A DNA stretch of 64,000 nt from Intestinibaculum porci (lineage in GTDB: Bacteria; Bacillota_I; Bacilli_A; Erysipelotrichales; Coprobacillaceae). The notes beneath the pieces are model-generated. The model made no database searches. It saw only the letters and a list, made by a program, of their open reading frames with translations, and was not told the origin of the DNA. How positions within the stretch are numbered: the stretch's first letter is position 1; each line of letters begins with the position of its first letter. The DNA is taken from the NCBI RefSeq assembly GCF_003925875.1, contig NZ_AP019309.1, positions 2,108,001 to 2,172,000 on the forward strand, given 5' to 3'. Shown here piece after piece: positions 18,955-57,484 of this stretch. The position numbers and the translations under genes were made by a program.

Positions 18955-19420
18955 ACAATTTCTCCTCACAAATAAAATGATGCATCACCAAGATACTTAT
19001 GAGAATAAATATTCCGATCAGTATTTGATGAATCTCTTTCACATGAAAGCATCATGTGAAATTCCTCCATTGCCTTTATTTTATCACTTCGTCTGTAAAA
19101 AAGGAATGTCCAATCTCTTGCATTCCTACTAACTGCCTGCTTTTTATTTTTATCATTTTCATATTTTTAGATGTTATGCACGCTATGTGCATAACTATAT
19201 TTTCATTGATCAAAGCACCACAAATTTGCCAAAGTAAATTCTATATTAAGATTTTATGAAAAAGTCGTGCACAAAGCTGATTAACTGCTTTACCCTTATT
19301 TTAATAATATTATAAGGTTATATAATTCATAAATTATCATATTCTATTATTTTGGAATTCCTTTTTTACTAAGATTAGTTAAATGAGACAGCGTTTTCAA
19401 ACGCCGCCTCACTTTTAAAA
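18955..19420. other. Intergenic AT-rich region
   Basis: I find no convincing gene. There is an imperfect GCGTTT/AAACGC hairpin near 19390-19410. The region borders the remnant of an older Tn7-like right end and may hold more of that element, but nothing recognisable is left. Confidence 0.4.
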
Positions 19421-19537
19421 TATTATTTTATTTCTTATTGTAAAGTCCTTTATTCTAAAAAAAAGCAGAGCTTAGATCATTGAGCTCTGCTTTTCATTTC
19501 ATTTTAGTTCTATTTCATTTCTTATTGTAGATTGACA
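19421..19537. mobile_element. Right-end remnant of an older Tn7-like element
   Basis: Bases 19487-19537 match the true right end (34362-34412) at 48 of 51 positions by eye, including TTTCATTTCTTATTGTAGAT and a terminal ACA. A weaker site lies at 19421-19445, and a strong hairpin AGCAGAGCT/AGCTCTGCT at 19464-19490. The remnant has the orientation of a right end but abuts the left end of the intact element. This is what repeated insertion into one attachment site would leave. Confidence 0.8.
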
Positions 19538-19541
19538 ATTA
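19537..19541. repeat. Target-site duplication AATTA, left copy
   Basis: AATTA lies immediately before the transposon's TGTCAC terminus. The same five bases follow the other terminus at 34413-34417. A 5-bp duplication is the Tn7-family rule. Confidence 0.85.
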
Positions 19542-19547
19542 TGTCAC

Positions 19548-19715
19548 TCTACAATAAGGGATGAAATAAAACTGCCACTTTTCCTTACTTTTGTATTGTT
19601 TCCTACAATAAGGAATAAAATACAATATTAAAGTATTAAATATGCAGTTACAATTCAAATGAAATAGAATTATAAATCAACATGTGTAAATCTACAATAA
19701 AGTTGAAATAGAAAC
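19548..19715. repeat. Left-end array of TnsB-type binding sites
   Basis: Four copies of a site with core CTACAATAAG..ATGAAATAGAAC lie at 19548-19572, 19602-19626, 19649-19670 (weaker) and 19691-19715. Their starts are 54, 47 and 42 bp apart. All face the same way and are reverse complements of the right-end sites, the arrangement known for Tn7 ends. Confidence 0.85.
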
Positions 19716-19739
19716 ATTTTACTAGACCGTATTTCAATA

Positions 19740-20250
19740 ATTTTTCATTTGTTTTTATAGATATCGATCGAACCACCATCTTTATTTTTCCAATATATCC
19801 ATCCACATTCTATTTTCAAAGCTTTCAGATCATGTTTTTCCTATTTTAATTTCCAGGAACAACCGTTGACATCACATAAATAATTCCTTTTGCAATTATT
19901 AATTTTCCTTTCCAAACAGTTCTTCAAGTTTTTCTTCCAGCATCCATTTCGGCATAAGGAAGCGTATTGCACAGTTTAAAGTGTGAGCGATCCATTTTAT
20001 GACCAGCATTAAAGCCGAAGATAAAGTTCATGGCGATTCTGTAAATGATGGAAGTTGGCGCTAATCCGTAAACCTGCTTTGAGAAAATGTGCTGCAGGCG
20101 AGCATTATCATCACGATACTTTTGCTTCATCTTAGTGCTCGTATAAAGCCTTCTGACAATTTCAGCCGGGTACAATCCTGATTTCATATAGAGATCAATG
20201 AACGTCTTTGAATCATCATCAAAACAGCCAGGATAATAGCGAAGACCCAT
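19740..20250 (-). pseudogene. Fragment of an Eco57I-like N6-adenine DNA methylase (copy 1)
   Basis: The readable frame (20250-19924) has GCFDDDSKTFIDLYMKSGLYPAEIVRRLY and HIFSKQVYGLAPTSIIYRIAMNFIFGF. This resembles motif I and the following region of Eco57I-like restriction-system methylases. There is no upstream start and no catalytic NPPY region. A frame change near 19935 would read KWMLEEKLEELFGKEN, and CDVNGCSWKLK appears near 19850, so more protein remnants follow. A second copy of the same piece is at 21582-21914. Confidence 0.65.
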
Positions 20251-20438
20251 CAGCCAGATTTCTCAGACTGTGAGTCTTCGCTAACAATGCGCTCAGTATA
20301 GTGGGAGTTTTATTTACTCCAAAGGCCTATAAGTTTTCGTGGGGAGGTGCAAACCCTACGGTTTGAAAAACCCCAAAAAACTGGATAGCCTATGCTACTT
20401 TAAAGCGCCATTTTTTAACGCTCTTCAATCATATTTCA

Positions 20439-20651
20439 TTAGTGATCATGTTCGTCAAGAAGATAAAAGACATAATCAATTAAGTATATTTGTATGATAC
20501 AAATAATAAGGGCAATCGTCGCTACTATTATAGTATGTTTCGTAAAGCTCATCAAATAGAAGTAAAAAACGATTGTAATCAACATCATAAGTGATTTCAG
20601 ATAGCGATAATGTTCTTGATGATGACATATTATATTCCAGATTTTTTTCAT
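20439..20651 (-). CDS. Small hydrophobic protein, doubtful
   Basis: From ATG 20651 this is 70 residues: MKKIWNIICHHQ, then two hydrophobic segments (approximately 20-40 and 42-62), ending LLDEHDH. A TTG 60 bases upstream would lengthen it, but neither start has a strong ribosome site. It lies in decayed cargo and has no known family. Confidence 0.35.
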   Translation of the reverse strand: MKKIWNIICHHQEHYRYLKSLMMLITIVFYFYLMSFTKHTIIVATIALIICIIQIYLIDYVFYLLDEHDH

Positions 20652-20762
20652 ATCAATTATCTTTTCAATTAATGTGATAAGGGAGTACTTTAATGGCTTA
20701 TGATAATTCAAATGTTTTCAAAAGGTCTCTAGCTAGAGACCTAATTGATTCAACTTAAAAAT

Positions 20763-20954
20763 TCATTTAAAAAAATTTCTGGTAGCCTGACGGTCAGCCT
20801 CCATTCTTGCTTTCGCAATTCTCTCTTCATTCTCTCTTTCTAATTTAACTCGTTCAGGATCATAAGCCGGTTCTGGCTTTTTAGAAAAATGAAGATAAAG
20901 CGCAATTGCAATAAGAGCTACAAGAATGATAATGATAAAAATTAAAATAATCAT
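20763..20954 (-). CDS. Small single-pass membrane protein
   Basis: The protein has 63 residues: a helix from 2 to 22 (MIILIFIIIILVALIAIAL), then a charged tail rich in Arg and Glu (RVKLERENEERIAKARMEADR), possibly a short coiled coil. AAGGAGG precedes the ATG, so translation is likely. No family is recognised. It is cargo of the transposon. Confidence 0.6.
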   Translation of the reverse strand: MIILIFIIIILVALIAIALYLHFSKKPEPAYDPERVKLERENEERIAKARMEADRQATRNFFK

Positions 20955-21041
20955 AAAATCAACCTCCTTAGATTAAAATGATGAATCTAAATCTCTTTCT
21001 ACTTACATTTTAATTAATATTTAAATAAAAAGCAATAAAAT

Positions 21042-21081
21042 GGGTGCGAACGGTCATTTTTGGTTCCTAATGGTCATTTTT
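21042..21081. repeat. IS21-like terminal repeats (left)
   Basis: Two adjacent copies of GGTnCnnAnnGGTCATTTTT (21043-21061 and 21062-21081) form an inverted pair with 22884-22920. Short repeated subterminal units are typical of IS21-family ends. The family is inferred. Confidence 0.45.
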
Positions 21082-21581
21082 AATAAAAAATTAAGAATAT
21101 CTCGCGTTTGCAAAAAATTTAAAATTTAAAATATTAAAGCATCATTTGCACAGTGGTGCTGATTGTTGTAAAATAATTTTACATTTACAAATTAGCGGCT
21201 TTCATCCCACGGCTTAATGACCGAGATCATCAGTTTTCCTTTAACTTAATGACTTTTCTGAAAAAATAGCGACTTTTCAAAAAATCAAAATTACGTCGAT
21301 ATAACCATCATTATTTGAAAAGTACATCACCTAAAATAATGTACTTTTCGTACTTTGAACTTTATTTTTATACGATAAAATCAACGTTATTTTCATTTCA
21401 TGCATTTTCACAAGAACTTATCAAAGTGTTTGTGAAACGCCCAGAAAAGGAAATTTATCATTAAAATTTTGATTTCTGGTGCAAATTCAAAATCCACAAA
21501 CGATTTCAGTACATATAAAGGAAAACTAAGCCATCATCAAAAGCGATGATATTTAAGCTGAACGCCTGTGAGCACAGCATA
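21082..21581. other. Gene-free stretch within the cargo
   Basis: About 500 bp of AT-rich sequence. I see no supported gene, RNA or promoter. It is probably degenerated cargo. Confidence 0.4.
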
Positions 21582-21914
21582 TCATTCAGTTTGTTTATAC
21601 CAGAAGCCATTATAGACCGGTGAACGATCCATTTCATGACTAGTATCGAAGCCGAAGATAAAGTTCATGGCAATCCTGTAAATAATCGAAGTTGGTGCCA
21701 GCCCATAAACCTGTTTAGAAAAGATATGCTGAAGACGCTCACTGTCATCAGGATACTTCTGCTTCATCTTAGGACTCGCATAAAGCCTTCTGACAATCTC
21801 AGCCGGGTACAGTCCTGATTTCATGTAAAGATCAATGAACGTTTTGCTATCGTCATCAAAGCATCCCGGATTTTCCTTTTCCAGCAGATCACACATTTCT
21901 CTTACGACGTTCAC
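21582..21914 (-). pseudogene. Fragment of an Eco57I-like N6-adenine DNA methylase (copy 2)
   Basis: This contains the same block as copy 1 (NPGCFDDDSKTFIDLYMKSG to IIYRIAMNFIFGFD), at roughly 85% nucleotide similarity by eye, with a different N-terminal lead (MNVVREMCDLLEKE). It ends in unrelated residues after DRSPVYNG. Neither copy has NPPY. The pair looks like two independent truncated remains of related methylase genes. Confidence 0.6.
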
Positions 21915-21983
21915 ATGCGTAGCCTGCGGAAAAAAACCTCAGCCTTCGACTTTGTTCTTTTTGCCTGCTCATCAGCTGATTTC

Positions 21984-22388
21984 TTAAATCTGGGATGGAT
22001 AATACATCTGCCACCTTTCATAAATCGCTTTATCCAATCCTTTTAAGGCCTCGAAGGTTCTCCGAATCAGGTGTTCACGACACTGCGTTAATACCTGAAC
22101 TGTGACATCATCAGGAATCAGATGTTCCTCAATTAATAATCGTAAGAAATCATATTCAATCTGACTGGCACTTGGAAAACCAACTTCAATTTCTTTGAAG
22201 CCTAAGTCTACCAAAGTCTGAAACATCTCTACCTTTTCTTCGATCTTCATTGGTGTGACAAGAGCCTGGTTCCCATCACGTAAATCGACTGAGCACCAGA
22301 TTGGCGCTTTCTCGATATGTTTGTCTGGCCAGGTACGATCTGGCAGACTGATGGTTTCAAATCTCTTGTACTTCTGATAATTCATCAT
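21984..22388 (-). pseudogene. leuA: 2-isopropylmalate synthase, N-terminal fragment
   Basis: The first approximately 120 residues are clearly Leu[38 protein letters not shown] (metal-binding Asp and the RDGNQ loop) and [14 protein letters not shown]. The frame ends abruptly after [14 protein letters not shown], where the full enzyme continues for more than 400 residues. The start, an AAGGAGA ribosome site and the T-box leader are intact, so truncation is at the 3' side only. The fragment cannot be an active synthase. Confidence 0.9.
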
Positions 22389-22414
22389 TTCTCTTTGTTC
22401 TCCTTTCCAACCTT

Positions 22415-22690
22415 ATAAAAAATCTCTCGTCTCTACTACATATACTATAGCAAGAGGACGAGAGATATGCTTCGTGGTTCCACCTCAGTTTATTGACACC
22501 TCACGATGCCAACCTTATCGAGTACGCTTTCGAAAAAGTTATACTCTAGCGTGATAACGGTCGCAAGTTCCGTAGCTACCTACTGCAATTTCAGTGCTCC
22601 ACTCCGGGATGAGTTCAAAACGTCGTCAGCATGTCCTTCGCTTTTACTACTTCCCTTCAATGTATTTGTCTCATCGGTTGTTGACATTGC
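22415..22690 (-). ncRNA. T-box leader of the truncated leuA
   Basis: On the minus strand the T-box core GAGGTGGAACCACGAAGC (22471-22488) is followed by the terminator ATCTCTCGTC/GACGAGAGAT plus TTTTTT (22467-22416). The specifier stem lies in the upstream part (to about 22690). T-boxes read uncharged tRNA, here expected to be tRNA-Leu from the gene it precedes. I did not resolve the specifier codon. Confidence 0.85.
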
Positions 22691-22883
22691 TATATACTTT
22701 TACTTTAAAGCTGTCAATAAATCCAAGCCATTTTTTATACTTTTCTAAACATTGTATACTTTCTGTCGTATTATCCGATCTGACTAACGCTTTCTTTTTA
22801 GACTCTTGCCATATTCCTATTATACTCCTCTTTATTGGGCTTTCATAATATTTCATACAATTTAAAAAAAAATCAATAAATCG

Positions 22884-22920
22884 TGACCGTTGGGCACCAA
22901 AAATGACCGTTGGGCACCAA
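22884..22920. repeat. IS21-like terminal repeats (right)
   Basis: TGACCGTTGGGCACCAA occurs twice (22884-22900 and 22904-22920), inverted relative to the pair at 21042-21081. No istA or istB remains between them. Confidence 0.5.
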
Positions 22921-23032
22921 TTTATTGTAAATTGAAATAAAATCAATTATACTTTAAGTAGATTAAGGTAATTATTGAGTGCTTAAACAAGGTTTATATT
23001 TTGATTATTTATTAAAGAAAGAAGGGAACTCT

Positions 23033-23302
23033 ATGTCTCAGAAAAAAAGCTACTACGATCCTAAGCGGACCAAAGAGTTAACGAAGGCCGGGCAATCCAT
23101 GGGTGTTGCCATGACTTACCTTGGTTTAATTGTGGTTGGTGCTTTAATTGTGATTGATACCTATTATTATTTAACAAATCATCAGAAAGAAAGTTATTCA
23201 CCAAGTTTCATGTTAGGAATGGGCTTGATCACTTTACTTGTTTTAATAGCTGTTATCATTGATATCTTTATGAGAGTAAAAAGAAAGAAAGGAAAAAAAT
23301 AA
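23033..23302 (+). CDS. Small two-helix membrane protein
   Basis: The protein has 89 residues from ATG 23033 after GAAGGGA. A polar N-terminus (SQKKSYYDPKRTKELTKAG) is followed by two helices (approximately 22-42 and 58-80) and a Lys-rich tail. The stop is one base from the next gene's start, so they form a two-gene unit in the transposon cargo. I recognise no family. Confidence 0.65.
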   Translation: MSQKKSYYDPKRTKELTKAGQSMGVAMTYLGLIVVGALIVIDTYYYLTNHQKESYSPSFMLGMGLITLLVLIAVIIDIFMRVKRKKGKK

Positions 23303-23303
23303 T

Positions 23304-23849
23304 ATGTTTAAAAAAGTTACTGTTATTTTACTGTGCAGCACGCTGCTTTTATGTTTATCGATTACAAAATCTTCTGCCAAAGAAAATAGTGTTTTATTAA
23401 AAGCTTATAACAATAATTTATCAAATATCAGTTCAATTGATTTGCATCCAGAATATTGTCAAGTTGTTTATGATTCTAGATATGACCAAAATCCTAAAAT
23501 TCCAAGACGGGCAAGACCAACAAGTTATTCTTATTTTAAAACCTATCGGGCAAATATTATTTGTAAAGGGACTTCTTATCCTGTCAACTCATACGCTTTA
23601 AATGCCAGTATTGATTTCTATGTAAACGTATATTTTAAATTAGATAAATCTAATAAATCACATTGCAATGGATACGATAAGCCTGTTATTACAAGTTGCT
23701 CTGGATCATATGGAGCAACAGGTTATTCTCATCCATCTGTATCAGTTTCATCATACACTGATACCTATATGAACTTTAAAGGGAAATGTATCTTAACTGT
23801 TGCTGGCATTGACTATACTATGTCTGGAACTAAAAAAATGTCATTATAA
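23304..23849 (+). CDS. Secreted Cys-containing protein of unknown function
   Basis: The protein has 181 residues with a clear signal peptide (MFKKVTVILLCSTLLLCLSI, cleavage near SSA-KE). The mature part is Tyr/Ser-rich with five Cys, possibly disulfide-bonded, and alternating beta-like stretches (YRANIICKGTSYPV, YMNFKGKCILTV). It is co-directional with and adjacent to the membrane protein before it. No family is recognised; it could be a secreted effector or surface protein carried as cargo. Confidence 0.65.
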   Translation: MFKKVTVILLCSTLLLCLSITKSSAKENSVLLKAYNNNLSNISSIDLHPEYCQVVYDSRYDQNPKIPRRARPTSYSYFKTYRANIICKGTSYPVNSYALNASIDFYVNVYFKLDKSNKSHCNGYDKPVITSCSGSYGATGYSHPSVSVSSYTDTYMNFKGKCILTVAGIDYTMSGTKKMSL

Positions 23850-24029
23850 TTATTATAACTCATAAGCACTCTGTTCTGATTTACCTTTTAATCGCATTTA
23901 AAGATGATCATCTTTATCATATCACAACGATATATGTTAAAAGGGGCTGTAACATTAAGAAATAACTATCACAATGATAAAAAGTGAAGTTTGATGATCA
24001 AAACGTTATAACAGTCCTGATTATATCAA

Positions 24030-24067
24030 AAAAGGGAACTGAATTATGAATTCAGCTCCCTTTTTTG
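24030..24067. terminator. Bidirectional terminator in cargo
   Basis: GGGAACTGAATT/AATTCAGCTCCC (one mismatch) is flanked by A and T runs. Confidence 0.75.
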
Positions 24068-24139
24068 GTGTATAATATTTATATGATCAGTTATTCAAAA
24101 AATACACAAACATATGGTATCACAAATCAGCTTTCTTTT

Positions 24140-24388
24140 CTATCTGATGTTTGTATTTCTTTCGATAACGACATTGATGAATTTGATGTTTGCCGTACAG
24201 TTAAGAGCATAACAGAAAATACGATCTTTGGTGATTTCATCGGTATCTTTATAGCCTAAAGAGGCATAGACATCAGTTGCGAAGATAATATTTCGCTCCA
24301 TGGTCATATCCTTCAAAAGAATATTTAATACTGACTTGTTCATATTTTTTAAATTTAATTCAAATTCTTCTGCTGTACTGATATCCAT
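24140..24388 (-). pseudogene. N-terminal fragment of a DNA methylase-type gene
   Basis: The start is intact (GGAGG before ATG 24388). The first approximately 55 residues, MDISTAEEFELNLKNMNK to ATDVYASLGYKDTDEITKDRI, resemble the N-terminus of the same Eco57I-like methylases whose central pieces lie at 19924-20250 and 21582-21914. The remaining residues look like out-of-frame noise. It is probably the 5' stump of a deleted restriction-modification gene. Confidence 0.5.
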
Positions 24389-24615
24389 TTTTAACCTCCG
24401 TAGTAATTTTATTATAACATGATTGATTAACTATTGTGATTTGTTTCTTATGTCATTGAATATTTTATCATATGTTCTTATCGTTTCTTGCCTTGTGGAT
24501 AAATATATTTACTTCGGCATTTCATAATGAAATATTTTAAGATAAAATGATACATAGCTATTGTGATTAAAAGAGACAGGAGTTTATGTTCCTGCCCTTT
24601 TGTTATAAATAAGTC

Positions 24616-25341
24616 TCATTTTCCAAAAATATCATCAACTAATTTTTTACGCTTATTCATTTGTTTTTCTTTCTCAATTTTATTCATAATTTCATCGTTA
24701 ATAATAGATTCTGCTAATGCTTTATAATCAATGATTTGATTAAGCTCAATGGCAAACCGCTTTGTTGCAATCAAATGCTTCATTGCGGTTATATTATCGA
24801 TAACACTATCAGGATCATAGTATCTGGTTACAAGTCTGATATTATCTGTTATTCTTCGATCAATGTTATCACTGTATGCCATACGAAACTTAATTCCATG
24901 ATTTTCCCAGTAGACCTTTTCAATGCAGGTATTATTAAACTTTCTTTTGTTCTCTAGTGCTTTCTTATTAGGCTTTACCGAGATTGCTTCCTTATGTCCA
25001 TCACTATATGTAACAAGGAAATCCGTTGACATAATATAATTTGGATTTTTTGAATAGCCAACTCCAAGCAGTGAGGCGATATAGTCTGTTTCATTTTTAT
25101 CTAATGGATACTGCTCATTAATATCAACCACATCGTCATTGAAGCGAAGCCATAACCATACCCTGTATTCTCCCTGAGAAAGCAAATCAACGGTTCTTCC
25201 AGTTTTCCAGTCAACCGCCTGAACTCTTGTGCCAGCACCATTAGGGTGTTCATTTGCATGTTCCCATGCTGAATAGTCTTTACCGTTGCCGCGGCCATAA
25301 CCTTTAGAAATTTTCGTTGCTTTACTAGGTTTTCGTGCCAT
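24616..25341 (-). CDS. tnsA: Tn7-like transposase subunit TnsA
   Basis: This 241-residue restriction-like endonuclease is the partner of TnsB that cuts the 5' ends of the transposon, allowing cut-and-paste movement. The catalytic triad is visible as Glu58 (LLSQGEYRVWL), Asp107 (YIMSTDFLVTY) and Lys123 (AISVKP). The C-terminal part (IDYKALAESIINDEI and a Lys-rich end) is likely the TnsC-binding tail. It is the last gene of the operon, 2 bp after tniQ/tnsD. That placement is unusual, since tnsA usually comes first. Confidence 0.93.
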   Translation of the reverse strand: MARKPSKATKISKGYGRGNGKDYSAWEHANEHPNGAGTRVQAVDWKTGRTVDLLSQGEYRVWLWLRFNDDVVDINEQYPLDKNETDYIASLLGVGYSKNPNYIMSTDFLVTYSDGHKEAISVKPNKKALENKRKFNNTCIEKVYWENHGIKFRMAYSDNIDRRITDNIRLVTRYYDPDSVIDNITAMKHLIATKRFAIELNQIIDYKALAESIINDEIMNKIEKEKQMNKRKKLVDDIFGK

Positions 25342-25343
25342 AT

Positions 25344-27887
25344 CTACTCCTCCTTGACATCTTCAGTACTATGAAAAACACCTTTGCTTACTCTATAAAG
25401 ATATCCTTTTCGTACAAGCCGAGATAAAATTGAACTCAACTGATTCTTTGGTTTATCCAGAAACTCAAAATCCTTGAGCGTATAATCACGGACAATGTCT
25501 TTATTTATTACGTCCATAACAGTGTCTTCCATTGTTTTCTCACGGATTCTATCCTTACCGGTATACATATAAACACCTGTTTTAATTCTCTTCGCCAATC
25601 CTTTCTGTGGAAATTTTTTTAAGGCATCGGTTATCTGTTGCCTTGTTAAATCAGGAATATTAATATCTGATGCAGTGAATTCACCTTCACTTAAGTTTTC
25701 TTTTACATATTCAAGAACCTGATCTGGAACAGTAACAAAATCTTTACCAGCCCCTGTAACATACGTACCCATAGCCACGCGGTGAATGCGTTTAAGATGA
25801 TCAAGACTTACTAACGCGGTTCCAATTTGTGAAACAGAATATCCAGTCAAATCAGAAAGCTCAGAAATTGTGTAAGAATCATTTCTATCTTTCACAAGAA
25901 TCCATAATAAATCTCGTATTTCAAATGTTTTTTCTGGCATTATTCTCTTTTTGTCAAAATCAGGATCATTTACATCATGATAAACACCTTCACTAACTCT
26001 GTATAGCTCACCACGACGCTGTAGAAAAGAGAGTTTCATATTAAGATCGTATATAGAATAATTTTCATTTGATAGACTTTCGGCAGTATAGTCAGCACTC
26101 GGGTTTTCTGCAATGGTATTTCGAATATATGGAAGAATTCCTATTGGCACATCTTTCACCTTTTTTCTAACATCATCAGGAAGCGGTAAAACTTTTGATT
26201 GTGTTGGTCGACGCAGCTCAGATAGTATAAGCAGTTTACTTACATTTTCCAGTACTACTTTTCCATCACTATTAAATACATCAAAACTGTTTTTGGCTTC
26301 TTTTGAACGAACATGATATAGATTTTTTGAAGCTTCAAGGACAAATTCAGGAAATTCATCTCCATAAGGGTTCTTTTCACACGGACAGCGGCGACCAACC
26401 AGGAAGTCTCTAGCAGGCATAACAATTATTTTTTTACACTTATTACATCTGATTTTAACATTTTCCTGACCTGAAGTGCTAATCCCTGTCAGAACAGTAT
26501 AATCATCTCCTGTGAGATCAGCGACTGCTTTTTTATATTCGTCAGTGTTATTAATAGTTAAATCAAGAATAGCAACTGAGAAACCAATGCTTCTGCAGTA
26601 GGAACAATATGGGCTTCTTTGAAAATTAGACATTGTTTTAAAGAAAATATGTCCACACTTAGTATGTTTTATCTTCAATACCGTTGTTGATCTACTAGTG
26701 GTTTTTTCAGCGGAAAGCAGTTTGAAATCGTTCTGTTCAACAAGACTTTTCATTTCACTTAAAGTTGGACCCTTTTCACATTCGCATACACGTTCTTCCA
26801 GCATGTATTTTGCGCGAATGTGATGTATTAATCCACACTTATGTTTCACTTCAATAAACTTTTGCGGTCCTAAATATTCAGAGCAAATCTTGTAATCAGG
26901 ATTAACATTTTCAGCAACCTCAATGAACTTTTCTTCATCATTTCTCGCATTTTCACAATGAGGACATTGCCAGCCAGCATTAAAACCATATTCAGTTGCG
27001 AGGAATCGTTCACCACAGTTATGCTGAACCACTGAAAATAATCCATAACTTTTTAAAACTTCATAATCTTTGCTTACATTTAAATGACATTTTTCAGATT
27101 CAAACCGATTTCGTATATTTGAAACCGTAGATAAGACAAATTCAAACAAAAGAATATTTAAAGGAGCAGTTGTCCCGGTACTACTTTTAAAGATTACTCT
27201 ATTAAGAATTTTTTCAGCAGGGCCTGTCAGCATTCCATCAGGGATAGTATGCTCAATCAAAGAGATACAATCTTTTTTATTTACAAATTTTGTTTCAATT
27301 ATTTCTCTAAGATAAAATGTAATATCCTGAAAATTACAATGTAAATCTGTTTTCAGCAACTCATGGCAGAAATTTGCAAAGTTTAGTTCAAAATCTGAAG
27401 CTCTTGTAACATGCATATCTTCTGTACCATAAGCAACCAGTTTAACACCATGTTTCCAGCATGCTGTTACACCAGGTGCCTGGTGACTTCTCCTAAATAA
27501 AGGCCTATTATAAGTAGTTAAATCTTCTTTTAGGCAAATAGGGCAAATGTTTGTGCCATTGTAATGATTTCTAATCAAAGGTATCATCTTAGGAAACTTA
27601 TGTCTTTTTCTTTCAAATCCATTAATCCACATTGTTTGTGTTATGTCATTAAATAATGGAGCAATTAACGGAAATAATGTATGCTTCATGAGAATCTCAT
27701 CTGCTGGCAATGGGAATTCTATTTTATTCAAAATAGTCATCGTTTCATGTTTTATCAGATCATAGCTTCCAGCTACATCAAGATACTTTGACAGGTGCTG
27801 ATAATTTGTTCCATTAGCTTCTGCTAATCTGCTCATAAATGAATAAAATGTTTCATCTTCAACAGGTGATATAAAAGTCATGATCAT
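25344..27887 (-). CDS. tnsD: TniQ/TnsD target-selection protein with zinc and winged-helix arrays
   Basis: The protein has 847 residues. The N-terminal TniQ domain has FISPVEDETFYSFMSRLAE and a zinc site C115-C118-C143-H146 (ICPICLKED, HQAPGVTACWKH). Four more Cys-rich modules follow, at approximately 291-311, 351-370, 411-431 and 481-503. Residues 580-847 hold four similar segments of about 60 residues, each ending in a hydrophobic winged-helix-like wing (RVSEGVYHD, RVAMGTYVT, RIKTGVYMY, RVSKGVFHS). TnsD proteins bind a specific chromosomal site and recruit TnsC. The long DNA-binding tail fits recognition of an attachment gene. It overlaps tnsC by 4 bp. Confidence 0.9.
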   Translation of the reverse strand: MIMTFISPVEDETFYSFMSRLAEANGTNYQHLSKYLDVAGSYDLIKHETMTILNKIEFPLPADEILMKHTLFPLIAPLFNDITQTMWINGFERKRHKFPKMIPLIRNHYNGTNICPICLKEDLTTYNRPLFRRSHQAPGVTACWKHGVKLVAYGTEDMHVTRASDFELNFANFCHELLKTDLHCNFQDITFYLREIIETKFVNKKDCISLIEHTIPDGMLTGPAEKILNRVIFKSSTGTTAPLNILLFEFVLSTVSNIRNRFESEKCHLNVSKDYEVLKSYGLFSVVQHNCGERFLATEYGFNAGWQCPHCENARNDEEKFIEVAENVNPDYKICSEYLGPQKFIEVKHKCGLIHHIRAKYMLEERVCECEKGPTLSEMKSLVEQNDFKLLSAEKTTSRSTTVLKIKHTKCGHIFFKTMSNFQRSPYCSYCRSIGFSVAILDLTINNTDEYKKAVADLTGDDYTVLTGISTSGQENVKIRCNKCKKIIVMPARDFLVGRRCPCEKNPYGDEFPEFVLEASKNLYHVRSKEAKNSFDVFNSDGKVVLENVSKLLILSELRRPTQSKVLPLPDDVRKKVKDVPIGILPYIRNTIAENPSADYTAESLSNENYSIYDLNMKLSFLQRRGELYRVSEGVYHDVNDPDFDKKRIMPEKTFEIRDLLWILVKDRNDSYTISELSDLTGYSVSQIGTALVSLDHLKRIHRVAMGTYVTGAGKDFVTVPDQVLEYVKENLSEGEFTASDINIPDLTRQQITDALKKFPQKGLAKRIKTGVYMYTGKDRIREKTMEDTVMDVINKDIVRDYTLKDFEFLDKPKNQLSSILSRLVRKGYLYRVSKGVFHSTEDVKEE

Positions 27888-29437
27888 TTAAAAATCACTT
27901 CCTCACTATTTATTTCTTCAATAAGCGAATGAACGTTATTTTGAGATGTTGCCATATGAATCTTCTGCATTTCACTAATAGCCTTCAAAGTTTCTCTTAC
28001 TGCAGCGCTATCAGATGTAAATTTTCCTCCAGAAAGTTTTAATGCTCTTGTAAAAGAATTAAATATAGCCTTTTTGGAAACTTCGGGATAAAGTTCAAGG
28101 ATCTTTTCCTCAACATAAGCCTGTGTTCTTGCCACATCAACAATTTCTCCCACATCGTTGCCTGCATGACCTCTTTCGGAAATTGCAGCAATCATCTGGT
28201 TAACAGCCTTTTTCATGCTTATAGATTCTTTTTTATAATCATAGCAATCAATTGATAATTTCAATAAGTCCATTGACCGATTGCTACATTTTTTTATAAA
28301 ATCAGCTGTGATTTCAGTTGGCTTTAACATATACTGCGTCTGAATGTATGCCCATAAAATCATCAGCATATTTATTATTCCATGCGTTTCTTCGTACATT
28401 GCATCAATGATTTTAGCAGATGGATTTACGGGATTTGTAAAATAGCGATAATTCCAAAGTCTTCTTAGAATAAACTCAAATGCCCTTTTATTTTCCACAT
28501 ATACTTCTGAATTTATATTATGGGCAAAACGTCTGGCATTATGAGGATCATCAAAAAGTCTAAGAAAAGCTTCTCTGGTTCCAATTGCCACAAGAGCTAC
28601 CGATGTTTCATTAGCTAACACCAGAAAATTGCTAATGCTATAACCGCGCTTAGTTGTCTTTAAACTTAACATTTGAATTTCGTCCAGTATCAATGCTCCA
28701 ACATGAAATACATTAATATAGTTCTTAATCAGCCGTTCTTTATCTCCTAGTTTCTTTGCCTTAAAAACCTCGTTTTCATAATAAGGAGTTAAATTCCTCA
28801 ATGCACGGTCAATTGCTTCACCAATAGCCTCATACACACTTCCAATGTTATAATCAGGATGAATGTTAACAATCAGATAAGGTATCTGAACAAACTGATC
28901 AACCGTTCCCATATTATGAATAATTGTCTGCGGATAAAGATCAAGCACTGCATTAACTGATGTAGATTTTCCTGATCCTCCTATGCCTGTTATTGAAATT
29001 CCTTCAACGGGTTCTGACATATTTGTTGGAATTAACTTTTGATTTTGTTCAATCACACCATCACCTGTATGCACTTTTATGTTAGACTGGCTGCTGTGCA
29101 TAGTTTCCCGTTTAAGATAACTTTCTCGAATAGCCTTATGGAAGTGGTATTCAAACTTGCTATCCATTGGCAACTCTGTTCTAAAATCTAGTAAGCATTC
29201 AAGTGAATCAAGCTTCTGCTGCAAACTCATTTCATCAAGATTTTCAGGAAGAATAACACCATGATTAAAGGTAGCCTTTCTTCCTTCTTCATTAAGAAGC
29301 GGGGGAAGAGCCTCAATAAGAGGATTCCCTTTTGCTTTTCCTTCACATTGAATATATTCTGCTGAAACAATTGAATAACCAGATGTCTCTTGAAATGCAT
29401 ACTGCATCTCAGGTGTCGTATATTTTCTTTCTTCCAT
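27884..29437 (-). CDS. tnsC: Tn7-like AAA+ regulator TnsC
   Basis: This 517-residue AAA+ ATPase has Walker A GIGGSGKST (approximately 151-159), Walker B VGALILDEIQML and sensor segment VALVAIGT, then a C-terminal helical region. TnsC links the target-site protein to the TnsAB transposase and enforces target immunity. It lies between tnsB and tniQ/tnsD and overlaps the latter by 4 bp, so they are translationally coupled. Confidence 0.93.
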   Translation of the reverse strand: MEERKYTTPEMQYAFQETSGYSIVSAEYIQCEGKAKGNPLIEALPPLLNEEGRKATFNHGVILPENLDEMSLQQKLDSLECLLDFRTELPMDSKFEYHFHKAIRESYLKRETMHSSQSNIKVHTGDGVIEQNQKLIPTNMSEPVEGISITGIGGSGKSTSVNAVLDLYPQTIIHNMGTVDQFVQIPYLIVNIHPDYNIGSVYEAIGEAIDRALRNLTPYYENEVFKAKKLGDKERLIKNYINVFHVGALILDEIQMLSLKTTKRGYSISNFLVLANETSVALVAIGTREAFLRLFDDPHNARRFAHNINSEVYVENKRAFEFILRRLWNYRYFTNPVNPSAKIIDAMYEETHGIINMLMILWAYIQTQYMLKPTEITADFIKKCSNRSMDLLKLSIDCYDYKKESISMKKAVNQMIAAISERGHAGNDVGEIVDVARTQAYVEEKILELYPEVSKKAIFNSFTRALKLSGGKFTSDSAAVRETLKAISEMQKIHMATSQNNVHSLIEEINSEEVIFK

Positions 29438-29452
29438 ATATTTACACCTCTC

Positions 29453-30212
29453 TTAAAGATCTTCCATATATTTCATATAATCATCGTCAAATGACGTACT
29501 GTCATCAGCATCATCTAATGTTGGACCTTTATCAATAAACGTATTTTCATCAGATACTGTATTTTCATCTAAAGGCTTGTTTAAGTCATTTGAATTTGTT
29601 TTTTCATTACCATCATAATTGCTGTCAGCAGCAATATTCTTCTGACCAAGTTTCTTTTGTTCAATAAGCTTTTCTTTTTCTCTGGCTGTTTTGATATGCT
29701 TCGTATCATTTTCTTTGCCAGAATGTTCACGTTTTGCATCCAGAATAGTTTTCTCATGTTTTTGATAAAATTCAGATTTCTGGTTACGCTTTTCCTGAAG
29801 TGCTTCTCTCTTTTGTACAGCCATTTTCTTTCGATAAGCTTCCGCTTCCGCGACAGACATATTAATGAATGATGCCTGACTCTTAAGATCAGGATTAAGC
29901 CATGCACGAGACCATACGCCATCAAGAAAGTAATAAATATAATTAACTGTAGCTGGGTTAATAGCGACTTCAATTTTTTCTCTTTCATTAAGAAAACACA
30001 TTTCTTCAAGTTTTCGGTTTCTTAAATCAATATATTTCATCGTATCAACAAGAATACCATAGCGAGTAATTGAAGCTTTTTTATGTTTGTAAAGAGCAAT
30101 ACGAAATGCATCGAAATCTTCAATTTGTCTTGGATGCTGCCCTTTATTTTCTACACAGTGACGCCAGGTATCGCAAGGGGTTTGTTTAATTCCATAGTCA
30201 ATCATATCCTTT
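29453..30212 (-). pseudogene. tnsB: TnsB, C-terminal part (disrupted)
   Basis: These 250 residues from MIDYGIKQT continue TnsB after an IS4-family insertion. They carry the C-terminal beta-barrel (VNYIYYFLDGVWSRAWLNPDL), a long charged coiled coil and an acidic tail ending DDDYMKYMEDL, probably the TnsC-binding tail. Joined with 32036-33410 using one copy of TATCCTTT, the frame reads IPYTKD-MIDYGIK without interruption, giving 708 residues. If expressed separately the two halves would split the protein after the catalytic core. Confidence 0.9.
30205..30212. repeat. 8-bp target duplication of the IS4-family element (left)
   Basis: TATCCTTT here is repeated at 32036-32043. Confidence 0.9.
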
Positions 30213-32035
30213 TTTGAGTTCCGGTATTTTAATGTTGATTTTCAACCTCAAAATAATTTCGTGCTATATAATTTATGTATATGTGGCCCTAAACCATTAA
30301 TTTAGGATATTGCCAAGCTAACTTGTTAATTTTGCGTACTTAAAAACTTTACTGCTTTTTTAGCACCTTTTAAGCTACGTATTTGCTGTTTTCCTAAAGA
30401 AACTCCCAAATTTCAAGCTGCCTGCTAGGTTTTCGTTTCTCTATACGCTTAAAGCGTTGAATTCCCTTTTGGGCATATGCTAGGGCTTCCTTTATCCCCC
30501 TAGTGATCTGATAGATCCATACGCACACATCAGCTCTAAGCGATTTACTTCTTTCAATCATTTTTATCGCCAGGAGGCTTTCATCAACCTTGTTTGCCAT
30601 TAGCGCTACATGCCCGACTCTGATCATAAGCATGAGGTTCAGCACATTCATTTTTTTAAGCGTTCTTACACGCATATTTTCCCAATCATATTCAGACTTA
30701 GTGTGTCGGAAATTTTCCTCAATTCGCCAGCGATAAAAATATTCTCTAACTATTGTTATTACATCCTTCTTATCATTAACATGTCTGTTTGTGATGAGTA
30801 AAAGTGGTTCTTCTTCTGATAGTCCGTAGCAGAAAATTATTGTATATGCCTTTTTGCTGCCTTCAATGCATGGGAGTCCCACTCTTGTATGGGACAGCTT
30901 AACTTCCTTGTTTTCACTTTCAAAGAACAGCGTCATATTAACCTTTCCTTTTCGATCTTCCGCCATTTTTGAAACCAAAACCTCATGACCCTTAACGATT
31001 ACATTTCTATTACCCTTAAGTCTAATGACAAAGTCATCATCCGGGTGTTCTGCAAAATATTTAAAGAAGGTATTTGAATCATATCCTCTATCAAAAATGC
31101 CTGAAATAGGATGCTTAAGTATGGTTTTCATTGCGTCAAGTGATTTAATCGTTTCATCAGGCATAGACTTATGTCCATTAGAATCAGTAGAATAGATGTA
31201 GCTATATAATGGTATCGGCTGTTTATTGTTTGAAGAGAGCGCCACCGCCTCACAAACATGATATCCATTAACTAGTGTTGTCTTGGGCTGACTTGCATCT
31301 CTTACACGGCAAAGGTCCTCGAACTTTTTGCCATATGGCTTAGCGATTTCACTGTCATCAAACAGAACAACAACCTTGTCATCCTTATCGATAAAGACAT
31401 TTTCTCTAACGATGGCGTAGTAGTTGTTTTTGATCGTTTCAATTTCGTCTTCTTCTATGTTTTCCATATTATCGCAAAGTCTTTCGGATGTGTTTTTTAA
31501 CTTAATGCTTTCATCAAGAGCTCTAGCTATTTCGGTAGTAAGCACAGAAGTTTTCTTGGCTATTCCATACTGCATATCGAGCACGAAGTTGCTCGTAGCC
31601 TTTTTTAAATTTTTTGATATTTTGGAACTGAATATGGTGATTTCTCTTTTTATCTCGTATACGTCTGTAGTATAATAACTCATAGGGGAAGTCTCCTTTT
31701 TATTATGTTTACTTACTCAACTTTATTATAAATGAAAAGTGAGATTTCCCGCAATAATTCAAAAGAAATTGGAAAAATTGCCCACTGTCTTGTGGTGTCT
31801 ATCATTCCAATTTTTTTAGCCTTTGTGGACAGAACGACTAAAACTAGGGCGTGAAGTCCAGCCTTTTGTGAATATCTTATAGAAACAGTCAAAAATCACC
31901 GCCGAGAAGATTCATGGCGGTGAATAACTTTTAAAAATGCAGTTTTTTCAATTAAAAATTGTGAATAAGTTTTTTCGAATATTTCTGTTCGAATCTGATT
32001 ATATTTTATATTTCTTTTGAATACCGGAACTCAAA
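30213..32035 (-). mobile_element. IS4-family insertion sequence in tnsB, 1,823 bp
   Basis: Both ends begin TTTGAGTTCCGGTATT (16 bp perfect inverted repeat, 30213-30228 and the complement at 32020-32035). The element is bounded by the 8-bp duplication TATCCTTT. It carries one transposase gene and a noncoding 350-bp segment with a TCACCGCC/GGCGGTGA hairpin near 31896. The duplication copies are identical, which suggests the insertion is recent. Confidence 0.92.
30394..31683 (-). CDS. IS4-family transposase
   Basis: This 429-residue DDE transposase has the first Asp in VVLFDDSEIA, the second in GIFDRGYDS, and the YREK-type signature YFYRWRIEENFRHTKSEYDWE with the catalytic Glu, which defines the IS4 family. 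It moves its own element by cutting at the inverted repeats. It appears full length and is likely active. Confidence 0.92.
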   Translation of the reverse strand: MSYYTTDVYEIKREITIFSSKISKNLKKATSNFVLDMQYGIAKKTSVLTTEIARALDESIKLKNTSERLCDNMENIEEDEIETIKNNYYAIVRENVFIDKDDKVVVLFDDSEIAKPYGKKFEDLCRVRDASQPKTTLVNGYHVCEAVALSSNNKQPIPLYSYIYSTDSNGHKSMPDETIKSLDAMKTILKHPISGIFDRGYDSNTFFKYFAEHPDDDFVIRLKGNRNVIVKGHEVLVSKMAEDRKGKVNMTLFFESENKEVKLSHTRVGLPCIEGSKKAYTIIFCYGLSEEEPLLLITNRHVNDKKDVITIVREYFYRWRIEENFRHTKSEYDWENMRVRTLKKMNVLNLMLMIRVGHVALMANKVDESLLAIKMIERSKSLRADVCVWIYQITRGIKEALAYAQKGIQRFKRIEKRKPSRQLEIWEFL

Positions 32036-32043
32036 TATCCTTT
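32036..32043. repeat. 8-bp target duplication of the IS4-family element (right)
   Basis: TATCCTTT, identical to 30205-30212. Confidence 0.9.
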
Positions 32044-33410
32044 GTATAAGGAATTCCTTCACAAATGGTTGTGTTGTGAAAATAAACGAAATCTTCAGCC
32101 ATAATTCTGAACTGATCAATTGTTAATACAGCTTTCTTGTGATGATCGGAATCGTGGCGCTTCTTAATAAGTCCGGCTTTATGCATCATTGGATCGATCA
32201 TCTTTTCAAAAGTTCCAAAAGAACGTTCAACGATCGGTTTCAGAGAAGCTACACCTGCTGGTGAAAAACAAAAATTAATTCCTAATGCTCTAGCACATCT
32301 TCTTGCTTCCTTAGATACAAAATCTGAACCATTATCAGTCATCACTCTTTCAGGAAGAATTCCATATGGAATTGCATATTTAGGAGCATTGGGATGTCTC
32401 ATAAGCAGCTCACTCTTTGGATCAATTAAGCACTCATATACTCTATTCATTGCAATGACTGCGTTATTATCAAAAGATGCCGTAAATCCAACAATCATTC
32501 TTGTTTCTCTATCAATCATGTAATAGATAATAGGGCGTCCTACAACGAGATGATAATCATTATTAGAAACAAGTGATACATCAACCTCATGGGCGTCAAT
32601 TTCAACTAAATCCATCGGTCCATAAACACCCTCATTGACATCACCTTTCAGAAGTCGCTTATTATTTCTCATTTCTAACATTGATGTCTTCTTTGCCTCC
32701 AGCTGCTCGGGCGTAGCATAAGTATTAATAAAGTATGAGAATTGTCTCATAGATGGATATGTGCCCGGCTCTCCGAGATTTCCATTGCTGTCACGATATT
32801 CATCCTGAAGCTTAATATAACAGTATTCAAGCGTATACTCTTTACTAGTTGCAGTTAAATATTTATTCATCCACTTTCTCATGCGAGTATTATCTTCTTC
32901 ATTTCTATGGAAGGCTGAATCACCATTTTCAAGCTTTCTCCCACCACCTGAACCCCTTCTTTGTGACTTAGAAAAATAACTCTTATCATATAATGAATAA
33001 TCTTTCTTCCCGCTCTTAAGATAGTTTCCCAATACCCTCCAAAAAGTAGGTGCTGACATTCCACACTCATTGATAATCTTGTTAATAATTCGGCTTGATG
33101 ATCTTGTCTTAATTTCAAGATAATCTGGACCGAATATTTGTTCCATCATGTTCATTGCTTTTTTACGCTTTTCAAATTTTTCTTTTGCCTCTTTCGAAAA
33201 ATTTATATTATTCAAATCAATTACATTTTCATCAAAAATGTAAAAATCATTAGATTTAATGCTCTTAATAATATTAGAATAGAGCAATTGGCTAATATTT
33301 AGACTAGCTTTAGTAAGATCAACAACAGTTACTCTGTTTTGAGATACATTAATAACTCTCCAGTCTTCGTTTTTACCTCTTAAGCGTATACCTTTTCTAA
33401 TTTCGATCAT
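32036..33410 (-). pseudogene. tnsB: TnsB, N-terminal part with catalytic core (disrupted)
   Basis: This contains N-terminal DNA-binding helices (MSAPTFWRVLGNYLKSGKKDY) and a retroviral-integrase-type core with all three acidic residues: Asp272 (VEIDAHEVD), Asp359 (VMTDNGSDF) and Glu395 (KPIVERSFGTFEKM). TnsB cuts the 3' ends and joins them to target DNA. The frame runs into the IS4 element after IPYTKD and stops at 32031. The remaining 250 residues are at 29453-30212. Divergent to an XRE regulator. Confidence 0.93.
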
Positions 33411-33527
33411 GTAAATTCTCCTCTCACTAGTATTAAGGTAGATTTTTATACAATTTACGCGTAGTTTTCTTTTATATTTAGGTAGTTTACTTCTTGTTAT
33501 GTTCTAAAAAAAAATAACTCATGTATG

Positions 33528-33543
33528 ATCCTTATATAAGGAT
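33528..33543. promoter_or_regulatory. Perfect 16-bp palindrome, possible operator
   Basis: ATCCTTATATAAGGAT is a perfect inverted repeat. It lies 11 bp ahead of the XRE regulator's ATG and in the shared region upstream of tnsB, a natural site for autoregulation. Function is inferred. Confidence 0.55.
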
Positions 33544-33554
33544 AGGTGGATTTA

Positions 33555-33878
33555 ATGGATAACTTTAGTAATAATGATCTAGTAGCTCATTTCGGTGAAA
33601 ACGTTAGACGCATACGTAAACAAATTGGAATGACACAAGAACAGCTTGCCAAAAAATGCGGATACAGTCTAAAAGCGATTGGGGATATTGAACTTTGTAA
33701 ATCAGATCCAAAACTTTCAACGGCTGCAAACATAGCAGACGCATTAAACATAAACATCGCACAGCTATTAGATAATCGTGTTGCTATTATTGACGATTTA
33801 AATAATTTAGGTTCGGCCAAAGTGGCAGATTATATTTCTGATTTGCGATTAATTACAAAATACCGCAAAAAGATATGA
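33555..33878 (+). CDS. XRE-family transcriptional regulator
   Basis: The protein has 107 residues. The helix-turn-helix is FGENVRRIRKQIGMTQEQLAKKCGYSLKAIGDIE at approximately 12-46 and is followed by LSTAANIADALNINIAQLL, a standard Cro/C1-type domain. ATG 33555 follows AGGTGG. An in-frame GTG at 33546 is too close to the ribosome site. Divergent from tnsB, it is likely to control the transposition operon through the palindrome next to it. Confidence 0.88.
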   Translation: MDNFSNNDLVAHFGENVRRIRKQIGMTQEQLAKKCGYSLKAIGDIELCKSDPKLSTAANIADALNINIAQLLDNRVAIIDDLNNLGSAKVADYISDLRLITKYRKKI

Positions 33879-33982
33879 TTTTTTCTAATAGTAGTATAAT
33901 CGTTTTATGTAGATTTATCAACATTTTTCAACACGGCTTATTATAAAAAAATATCCATAGCCAATTATAGCTATGGATTCCA

Positions 33983-34168
33983 TCAGTCATTATCATCTTT
34001 TAACATATCTTTCATACGTTCATATTTGGTCATGTACTCCTTCAAGGCTTTTTCCACTATGAACGTTTTTGTTTGTCCAGAATAGGTACTGAAATCATTT
34101 AAATCATCATATATTTGCTTATCAATTTTTAAGTTCAGATTCACACCGTCTTTTCTCGGTCTAGGCAC
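33983..34168 (-). CDS. Ribbon-helix-helix protein (CopG-like)
   Basis: This 61-residue protein has NLNLKIDKQIYDDLNDFSTYSGQTKTFIVEKALKEYM, a typical ribbon-helix-helix DNA-binding fold or antitoxin. It starts with GTG at 34168 after GAGGTGAT. An overlapping ATG is out of frame. It sits between the XRE regulator and the right end and has no visible toxin partner. It is probably a second regulator of the element. Confidence 0.75.
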   Translation of the reverse strand: MPRPRKDGVNLNLKIDKQIYDDLNDFSTYSGQTKTFIVEKALKEYMTKYERMKDMLKDDND

Positions 34169-34274
34169 ATTATCACCTCTCAGTTCATTCTACATAAATT
34201 ATATCATACAACTAATAAAAAGCAGAGATGTGTACATCTATTGCTTAAAAAGTTTTAAATTAGACTGTTTTTAA

Positions 34275-34407
34275 TCTTTCATTTCATTTCTTATTGTAGA
34301 TCTAAAAATCATGATTTTAGTCTTTCATTTCAAGCTTATTGTAGATGATTTTTCACAAATTCTGCTTTTTATTTCATTTTGGTTCTATTTCATTTCTTAT
34401 TGTAGAT
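34275..34407. repeat. Right-end array of TnsB-type binding sites
   Basis: Three sites share the core TTTCATTTCTTATTGTAGAT: 34275-34301, 34320-34346 (core altered to TTCAAGCTTATTG) and 34381-34407. The last is followed by TTACA, the terminus. All face the same way and are inverted relative to the left-end sites. A hairpin AAAGCAGAGATGT/ACATCT lies just inside them at 34217-34246. Confidence 0.85.
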
Positions 34408-34412
34408 TTACA

Positions 34413-34417
34413 AATTA
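34413..34417. repeat. Target-site duplication AATTA, right copy
   Basis: The five bases after the terminal ACA match 19537-19541. Bases 34415-34417 are also the TAA stop of the L,D-transpeptidase gene. Confidence 0.85.
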
Positions 34418-35890
34418 ATAATGCATGAAGACCATTTCACCATATTTAGTGATTGAGTACATCTTGGCAGCTGAACCCATAGAAAGGTTGATGCAGCCAT
34501 GTGAACCTCTTGATTTATAGTATGATGGAGACCATGAACCCCATGACTGCCATGGTGCAGCGTGGAAGCCCGTACCAGTCCATGTAATACGTACCCAGTA
34601 TTTCACTGGTGTCTGATAGTTTTCACCAATTAAAGTACGATTCATCTGATGTTCTTTAATGAAGAATGCACCAGTCGTTGTTTTACGTCCAGGAACAGGT
34701 TTACCTGAGATACAAGGTGTGCTATAAGCAACTTTACCGTTTCTAAAGACATAAACCATCTGAGCGCCTAAATCGACTTCGGTATAGTTTTTCTGATCCC
34801 AGTCATCTTTGAAGTTATTCCAGTTAATCTTGTAAGTTGATTTAGAATACCAAGGGATGTCATATTTTAAAGTGACAGCTTTGATATTATCTTCAGACTG
34901 ATCTTTGACATAAGCATCTGTGCTATCCTGTGGAATAGCTTTATTCATTGCCTGACGAGCCTGTGCGATGGCTTTGGCATAATCAACACGCCAGCCATAG
35001 TCACCTTCAGTGGTTGATAACTTTTTACCAGTATGGGAAGTATAAGTACGTTTCTGACCGACAGTCTTATATTTTAAACACAGTTTTTCCACATAAGCCT
35101 GAAGCTTTTCATCATTAACAGCGACTTTGCCATTAGCCCAGTAAAGCATTTTCGCAATGTCATCAGGAGTCATTGTTTCAGTATGACCTTCCGCAATGGT
35201 CCAAGTAATATAACGTAAGCCTTTGTTGTTATAAGCAGCTAAACGGTTTTGTAATTCAGAGCGAGACGCCGTTTCTTTCGCTGTTTTATAACATGAATTG
35301 TATTTAGAAGTAGAAATATCTAAAGTCTTAGAAACTGATTTAAAAGATTTCACAACGGCTTTTGTCAAACCGTCAGTGTCAATGGTATTCCCCGGTTCTG
35401 CATCATTGACCTGATAAGACTTCTTGCTTGTTGAATAAGCAATATAAACAGGACGAGGTGCTCTGACCTTGTATGTCTTACTGCCTTTTACAAGTTCAGA
35501 TTTCTTAATCACATTCGCTAACTTAGAGGCATTGTAAGTGACATCATGCACTAAGGAATATGAATAAGATTTAAATGGAAAAGAAATACCTTTGTGCGCA
35601 TCACTGAAGGCATTTTCGATTTTCTTGCTGACAGTTGCTTTATAGTTAATGTCATCGCCATCAATGGTCATTGTGCCATTATTACGTCCCTTAATAGTGA
35701 GCGTATAACCATCTAATGACTTTTGAATTTTATCTTTTGACTGCTGTAAAGTTAACCCCGATACATCGATCCCGTTAATAGTGGTATTGTTATACCAACG
35801 ATCTTTGTTCGCAATGTTGTAGTAAGCAATAATACCCACAAGAATGGCCACCAGAACAGCTAATCCGATGTATAAATATTTTCTTTTCAT
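34415..35890 (-). CDS. L,D-transpeptidase (YkuD) with peptidoglycan-binding region; transposon attachment gene
   Basis: This 491-residue protein has an N-terminal membrane helix (YLYIGLAVLVAILVGIIAYYNIA), a long extracellular region with VanW/PG-binding-like repeats (NTTINGIDVSGLTLQQSKDKI) and a C-terminal YkuD domain. The YkuD active site is SRGSHGCINLS (His464, Cys466). It crosslinks peptidoglycan through 3-3 bonds. A Tn7-like element is inserted exactly at its stop codon, leaving the protein complete, but any native terminator is now 14.9 kb away. The conserved 3' coding end is the likely recognition site for TnsD. Confidence 0.93.
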   Translation of the reverse strand: MKRKYLYIGLAVLVAILVGIIAYYNIANKDRWYNNTTINGIDVSGLTLQQSKDKIQKSLDGYTLTIKGRNNGTMTIDGDDINYKATVSKKIENAFSDAHKGISFPFKSYSYSLVHDVTYNASKLANVIKKSELVKGSKTYKVRAPRPVYIAYSTSKKSYQVNDAEPGNTIDTDGLTKAVVKSFKSVSKTLDISTSKYNSCYKTAKETASRSELQNRLAAYNNKGLRYITWTIAEGHTETMTPDDIAKMLYWANGKVAVNDEKLQAYVEKLCLKYKTVGQKRTYTSHTGKKLSTTEGDYGWRVDYAKAIAQARQAMNKAIPQDSTDAYVKDQSEDNIKAVTLKYDIPWYSKSTYKINWNNFKDDWDQKNYTEVDLGAQMVYVFRNGKVAYSTPCISGKPVPGRKTTTGAFFIKEHQMNRTLIGENYQTPVKYWVRITWTGTGFHAAPWQSWGSWSPSYYKSRGSHGCINLSMGSAAKMYSITKYGEMVFMHY

Positions 35891-40375: not shown

Positions 40376-40417
40376 CTTCATATCTTCCCCGTTAAAAACA
40401 AGTAAAGGATTGCTCCT

Positions 40418-41545: not shown

Positions 41546-41600
41546 CTTATCAATTCTCCTCATGAATTTTATTATACGCTCGTTAAAAGCGATATGCATC

Positions 41601-41626
41601 AAAAAAGACGTTGCATTCACAACGCC
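41601..41626 (-). terminator. Terminator of the lysine transporter operon
   Basis: GGCGTTG/CAACGTC stem, then TTTTTT on the minus strand. Confidence 0.8.
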
Positions 41627-47010: not shown

Positions 47011-47033
47011 ACACATTTTTTTAAGCCCTTCAA

Positions 47034-47061
47034 CTCCTAAGATGCGTAATACAGCTAGTAA
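47034..47061. repeat. 28-bp target duplication of the IS1202-type element (left)
   Basis: The stretch runs from CTCCTAAG to GCTAGTAA and is identical to 48613-48640. Long duplications of 24-29 bp are a feature of the IS1202 group. Confidence 0.85.
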
Positions 47062-57442: not shown

Positions 57443-57484
57443 TAAAAAAAGCTTTCAAGAGGAAAGCTCAAAGCATTTCCTCTT
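57443..57484 (-). terminator. Expression-platform terminator of the SAM leader
   Basis: AGAGGAAA/TTTCCTCT stem, then AAAGC and seven T residues on the minus strand. Confidence 0.8.

Follow-up and report, generated by a model that had tools for sequence, protein, structure and literature searches.

Probable repeated use of an ldt 3' end by Tn7-like elements in Intestinibaculum porci

A Tn7-like element at the 3' end of ldt

The window, a stretch of 64,000 nucleotides from Intestinibaculum porci (contig NZ_AP019309.1, positions 2,108,001 to 2,172,000), holds a Tn7-like element that adjoins the 3' end of ldt, a gene for a YkuD-type L,D-transpeptidase. The features of the element and its attachment gene, in coordinates of the window, are as follows.

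19537..19541, 5-bp target duplication AATTA, left copy, which begins with the final base of the relic described below
19542..34412, current Tn7-like element, 14,871 bp, with TGT...ACA tips and AATTA on either side
19542..19711, + strand, current left end, with sites at 19545-19568, 19599-19622 and 19688-19711
24616..25341, - strand, tnsA (PF08722, TnsA N-terminal, E 2.5e-14, above cut-off)
25344..27887, - strand, tnsD/tniQ target selector, 847 aa (PF06527, TniQ, E 4.7e-18)
27884..29437, - strand, tnsC (PF05621/PF13401, TniB and AAA_22, above cut-off; Tn7 TnsC in PDB, E 1.2e-12)
29453..30205, - strand, C-terminal part of the broken tnsB, aligning to residues 477-717 of a 723-aa TnsB encoded elsewhere in the genome
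30213..32035, - strand, IS4-like insertion sequence inside tnsB, with TATCCTTT at 30205-30212 and 32036-32043
32031..33410, - strand, N-terminal part of the broken tnsB, aligning to residues 19-470 of the same 723-aa TnsB
34280..34412, - strand, current right end, with sites at 34386-34409, 34325-34348 and 34280-34303
34413..34417, right AATTA copy, overlapping the ldt stop codon (34415-34417)
34415..35890, - strand, ldt, the attachment gene by its 3' end (PF03734, E 2.9e-19)

In common with Tn7 and with Tn7-like elements, whether at attTn7 or at other attachment genes, the current element has TnsA, TnsB, TnsC and TniQ proteins, and it shares with Tn7-like elements its TGT tips, several transposase-type sites per end (three at each in a weight-matrix scan), a 5-bp duplication, and a right end that lies proximal to the target gene at the 3' end of the latter. 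Read from the right end, the genes are an HTH regulator, tnsB, tnsC, a long tniQ/tnsD and tnsA. This B-C-D-A order differs from that of Tn7, as does the broken tnsB, which is split by an IS4-like element flanked by the 8-bp duplication; the reading frame of the N-terminal part enters the insertion sequence by 5 bases, and its rve match lay below the Pfam cut-off. An intact TnsB (DDE) transposase was not found in the current element, which we class as Tn7-like, one of its genes being broken. Since the IS4-like insertion leaves the element without its own intact transposase, it would now be immobile by that transposase. The attachment gene is likewise unlike that of Tn7 at glmS, being ldt, with insertion on the stop codon; Tn7 insertion at glmS is described in PMC2918618 as lying about 20 bp downstream.

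Some further observations concern the contents of the element. A short C-terminal stretch of TnsD/TniQ resembles AbiEi antitoxin models (NCBIfam E 1.6e-8, below cut-off) and is perhaps, judging from this resemblance, the target-binding part. An N-terminal fragment of leuA (134 aa, 21984-22388) lies within the element as decayed cargo, and two stretches that are 83% alike (19983-20234 and 21620-21871) lie near it.

Mobile elements and repeats were also noted elsewhere. Related Tn7-like gene sets (tnsB-C-D-A) occur at locus L047 (~11.7-18.7 kb, which is 511.7-518.7 kb of the organism's own genome) and at locus L083 (G076:C2, ~259.8-266.8 kb), and in both the tnsB side adjoins the 3' end of a gene that we take by its appearance to be nrdD, for anaerobic ribonucleotide reductase; this nrdD-like gene is a probable second attachment gene of this Tn7-like group. 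A further set, the third, with relatives of TnsA, TnsB (in two frames) and TnsC, lies at 1,638,962-1,643,586 of the same genome as the window (L049). Within the window, a transposase-like gene (HTH, weak rve matches) is enclosed by two identical 29-bp direct repeats at 47033-48641, with the right-hand copy at the 3' end of open reading frame 48598-49830. This is perhaps an insertion sequence with an unusually long target duplication, such as the IS1202 group typically has. Genes duplicated in tandem, with weak matches of transglutaminase-like and choline-binding-repeat type, lie at 39263-41620, and a 27-bp unit in three head-to-tail copies (57637-57716) lies near a SAM riboswitch (57480-57581).

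A second right end beside the left terminus

The initial annotation had claimed that a second sequence in right-end orientation lies directly beside the left terminus of the element and matches the real right end at 48 of 51 positions. This was confirmed, and the relic was found to reach farther, to a second transposase-type site in the same right-end orientation, 87 bp further in. Its parts are as follows.

19424..19537, - strand, recognisable extent of the relic right end, with transposase-type sites at 19511-19534 and 19424-19447
19461..19494, - strand, probable terminator, a hairpin (-17.4 kcal/mol, z -3.4) flanked by the two relic sites and followed by a T run when read in the direction of ldt
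19487..19537, - strand, outer part of the relic right end, 48/51 identity, with its TGT tip (ACA on the + strand) at 19535-19537

The outer part aligned without gaps and in the same orientation to 34362-34412 of the current right end. The next-best 51-base match on either strand of the 104 kb of real sequence examined had 32 identities, and the maxima in ten first-order Markov copies of those 104 kb were 29-32. When the whole genome was searched by BLAST, the relic and the current right end matched over 53 bp (94%, E-value 2e-17). A 75-base relic query returned, besides itself, the current right end, an inner site of that end and one inverted match, which pairs the tip of the relic with the current left tip. 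The last base of the relic and the current left tip (TGTCACTCTACAATAAG, starting at 19542) are four bases apart.

The relic carries the marks of a Tn7-like right end: a TGT tip, a site 8 bases in, more than one site, and a single orientation of the sites. With a weight matrix built solely from the six sites of the current element, the outer relic site (19511-19534) scored 29.5, on par with the real sites, and the inner one (19424-19447) scored 19.8; a score above 15 was reached at just 3 positions across five Markov copies of the 104 kb, both strands being counted. The outermost relic site is identical to the outermost site of the current right end over 21 bases (CTACAATAAGAAATGAAATAG), and outside that site the two ends are identical at 22 of 24 positions. 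The sites of the relic lie 8 and 95 bases from its tip, those of the current right end 8, 69 and 114. A pattern scan reported the hairpin between the relic sites on the + strand only. Past the common 53 bp, the interior of the relic resembles the current element at transposase-type sites only. Given this site spacing of its own, the hairpin, and an interior that matches only at sites, the relic is best read, from such sequence comparison, as the right end of a related but different element rather than as a duplicate of part of the present element.

Probable order of the insertions and fate of the earlier element

With the element and one copy of AATTA removed, the joined flanks read CATTATTAATTGTCAATCTACAATAAG in the ldt direction; the TGT tip of the relic there follows TAAT, and the current tip follows TAATT, one base farther from ldt. 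Because the tip of the relic comes directly after the ldt stop in the joined flanks, the relic would have held the attachment position before the current element arrived. The target duplication of the current element takes in one base of the relic and separates the relic from the element. The initial annotation had held that a related element lay beside ldt before the current insertion and that the current element then entered between the two, and both points are supported by the AATTA separation and the register in the joined flanks. Tn7-like elements are known to insert serially or in tandem at one site, and Tn7-type insertion puts the newer element nearer the target gene, a rule with which the position of the current element between the relic and ldt agrees.

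We propose that the 3' end of ldt would be an attachment site for a Tn7-like family, in which TnsD/TniQ, to judge from the position of the element, presumably recognises the end of the gene, resulting in insertion across the stop codon with the right end beside ldt. An earlier related element would have inserted first, with its right tip after TAAT; before the current insertion, ldt would have been followed by TAATTGTCAATCTACAATAAG, and the site would have read as the ldt stop and then TTGTCAATCTACAATAAG. The current element would later have inserted one base further out, after TAATT, duplicating AATTA and thereby also the final base of the old right end. The left end and the genes of the old element would since have gone, with ~114 bp of its right end still recognisable. 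It is very likely that an earlier element at ldt was joined by the current one beside it and was itself reduced to a right end, and the ldt site has probably been used more than once. We infer the presence at one time of a full-length old element, as well as the timing of its loss.

A second left end further to the left, which the initial annotation had suggested looking for, was not found in the ~59-60 kb to the left of the relic (weight-matrix scan of 104 kb) or in the whole 3.2-Mb genome (BLAST with the current left end), and two complete tandem elements were accordingly not seen over that range or genome-wide. The next gene to the left (17893-18969) has a paralog at 2.39 Mb, and the upstream regions of the two resemble each other as far as 19108, which confines any leftovers of the old element to 19109-19537, at most 429 bp. 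That neighbour gene was considered as cargo of the old element and was set aside, its upstream similarity to the paralog extending to 19108. A hairpin at ~19380-19413, with a poor T run, was likewise considered as the original terminator of ldt displaced by the old element, a guess only that was not retained.

The narrow space left for the old element would suit an occupant that was a short non-autonomous derivative, consisting of a right end plus little else and mobilised in trans; nothing of the old element was recognised past 19424, and the paralog homology to 19108 leaves at most 429 bp. However, no left end is present in those 429 bp, and a mobile derivative needs both ends, so that such an occupant seems unlikely. 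An internal or local duplication, which the initial annotation had named as the case against its own history, is disfavoured as well. In this explanation some 53 bp of the current right tip would have been copied astray to the left flank by gene conversion, aborted transposition or repair, which would fit the abrupt end of strong similarity after 53 bp. The relic, however, lies outside the target duplication, has a tip that, with the element removed, falls in register with the ldt stop, and shows 3 differences in 51 bases; moreover, at positions where the current end has neither, it carries a second transposase-type site and a hairpin. Since this second site is present and the interior is unmatched in the current element except at such sites, a duplication of this kind is decidedly unlikely.

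Tandem insertion at an occupied site is strongly inhibited, as described in PMC11702153 and PMC11406308. Because the outermost site of the relic is identical to that of the current element over 21 bases, a complete old element should, under Tn7 target immunity, have hindered the new one, and the easier reading is that the old element was lost before the second insertion, with too little left for immunity. With just two recognisable transposase sites, the relic may be too weak to confer target immunity, making a second insertion possible. Of the history given in the initial annotation, the order of an old and then a new element is supported, and the loss of most of the old element after the second insertion is the less favoured part, as the immunity described in those papers would favour loss first.

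The ldt 3' end in other genomes

A YkuD match was found in 30 of the 60 genomes examined, the organism's own included. The comparison of ldt 3' ends covered the 11 relatives with full-length matches (L006-L016); L017, whose gene is divided between two contigs, was left out, as were the YkuD matches of lower strength, from L018 on. One other species of the genus was compared (G001; 82% complete, 330 contigs). Its ldt is 70% identical, and the stop is followed, after TAAT, by TGTGAATTTACAAT, which, in the same register, equals the relic tip at 12 of 15 positions; for the remaining ten full-length relatives, the best of 12 offsets gave 5-8 identities in 15 with the relic tip and 5-9 in 15 with the current tip. 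With counting begun at the first base past the stop codon, the G001 tip agreed with the relic at 13 of 15 positions, which was reached by 0 of 20,000 random copies, and G001 has a repeat of its own, TTACAATT(T)AAAAGTATATA, in two copies at 8 and 71 from the tip (8 and 69 in the current end), a 13-base exact repeat having occurred in 5 of 3000 random copies; both of these tests, of tip identity and of direct repeat, were devised after the sequence had been seen. Local alignment over 120 bases was not significant between the relic and G001, the score being reached by 247 of 2000 random copies, and between the current end and G001 it was reached by 1015 of 2000. Orthology of the relic and the G001 sequence was considered but given up, since the alignment of 120 bases with the relic is at the level of chance.

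The inner copy of the G001 repeat falls inside a terminator hairpin, and when G001 was searched with the repeat, just the outer copy was found within two mismatches. An insertion sequence begins beside that hairpin, with no visible matching duplication. On the 8.5-kb contig that carries ldt, no listed frame resembles a tns gene; the TnsD and TnsC relatives of G001 sit on other contigs. The G001 sequence is likely to be a third, different right end, likewise left alone. Since a different right-end-like sequence occurs in G001 in the same register after ldt, the site would probably have been used at least three times.

It is very improbable that the relic is simply the host's own ldt 3' region and terminator, which the right end of the element has come to resemble. 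A good terminator hairpin does lie ~45 nt past the ldt stop, and in G001, too, a hairpin and a tip of similar sequence are found at this place. However, the relic tip resembles the current left end as well (88% of 32 bases), to which ldt contributes nothing, and its TGT start and its site exactly 8 bases in are like those of the other ends. Among the ten other family members, by the rule applied, seven have a T-tailed hairpin 0-7 nt after the stop, one has it at 49 nt and two have none, and none of the ten has an end-like tip.

Relatives of the elements themselves were sought by several routes. A TnsD search of 315 genomes of the order gave a match in 9, the organism's own included, and none of the matches other than the window's own protein aligned past residue 636 of 847, with one short exception (residues 711-794, in a 232-aa frame of G076:C6, E 3.8e-6); thus, no second ldt-targeting relative was found. 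A protein search of genome contigs gave no relatives with the same TnsD, and viral contigs gave none by end pattern or by TnsC. The end-pattern search for a relative with the same ends returned a single isolated site; its genome had no TnsC relative, and the match was dismissed as chance.

A full-text literature search found no description of ldt as a Tn7-like attachment gene, and a term search for 'transpeptidase' gave no occurrence in the main text of the large Tn7-like survey PMC8649781. Tandem Tn7-like insertions at one attachment site are rare because of target immunity and have been described for CAST elements (PMC11702153). The arrangement at ldt resembles those tandem CAST insertions in that a second insertion occurred at the same site with the newer element nearer the target gene, and differs from them in that the older element is here a right end of ~114 bp and the second duplication overlaps its last base. 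Particular to the present case are ldt as the attachment gene, insertion across the stop codon, and the one-base overlap of the successive insertions.

Together, these features form a clean footprint of the serial use of one Tn7-like attachment site by close relatives, in which the order can be read to the base. A tentative and somewhat doubtful extension is that, at the ldt end in this genus, Tn7-like right ends accumulate as solo remnants, of one kind here and of another in G001, become the terminator of the gene and, most of their transposase sites having gone, no longer protect the site, so that close relatives can reinvade despite an identical outermost transposase site. As a natural test case, the locus could show what part of a right end target immunity requires.
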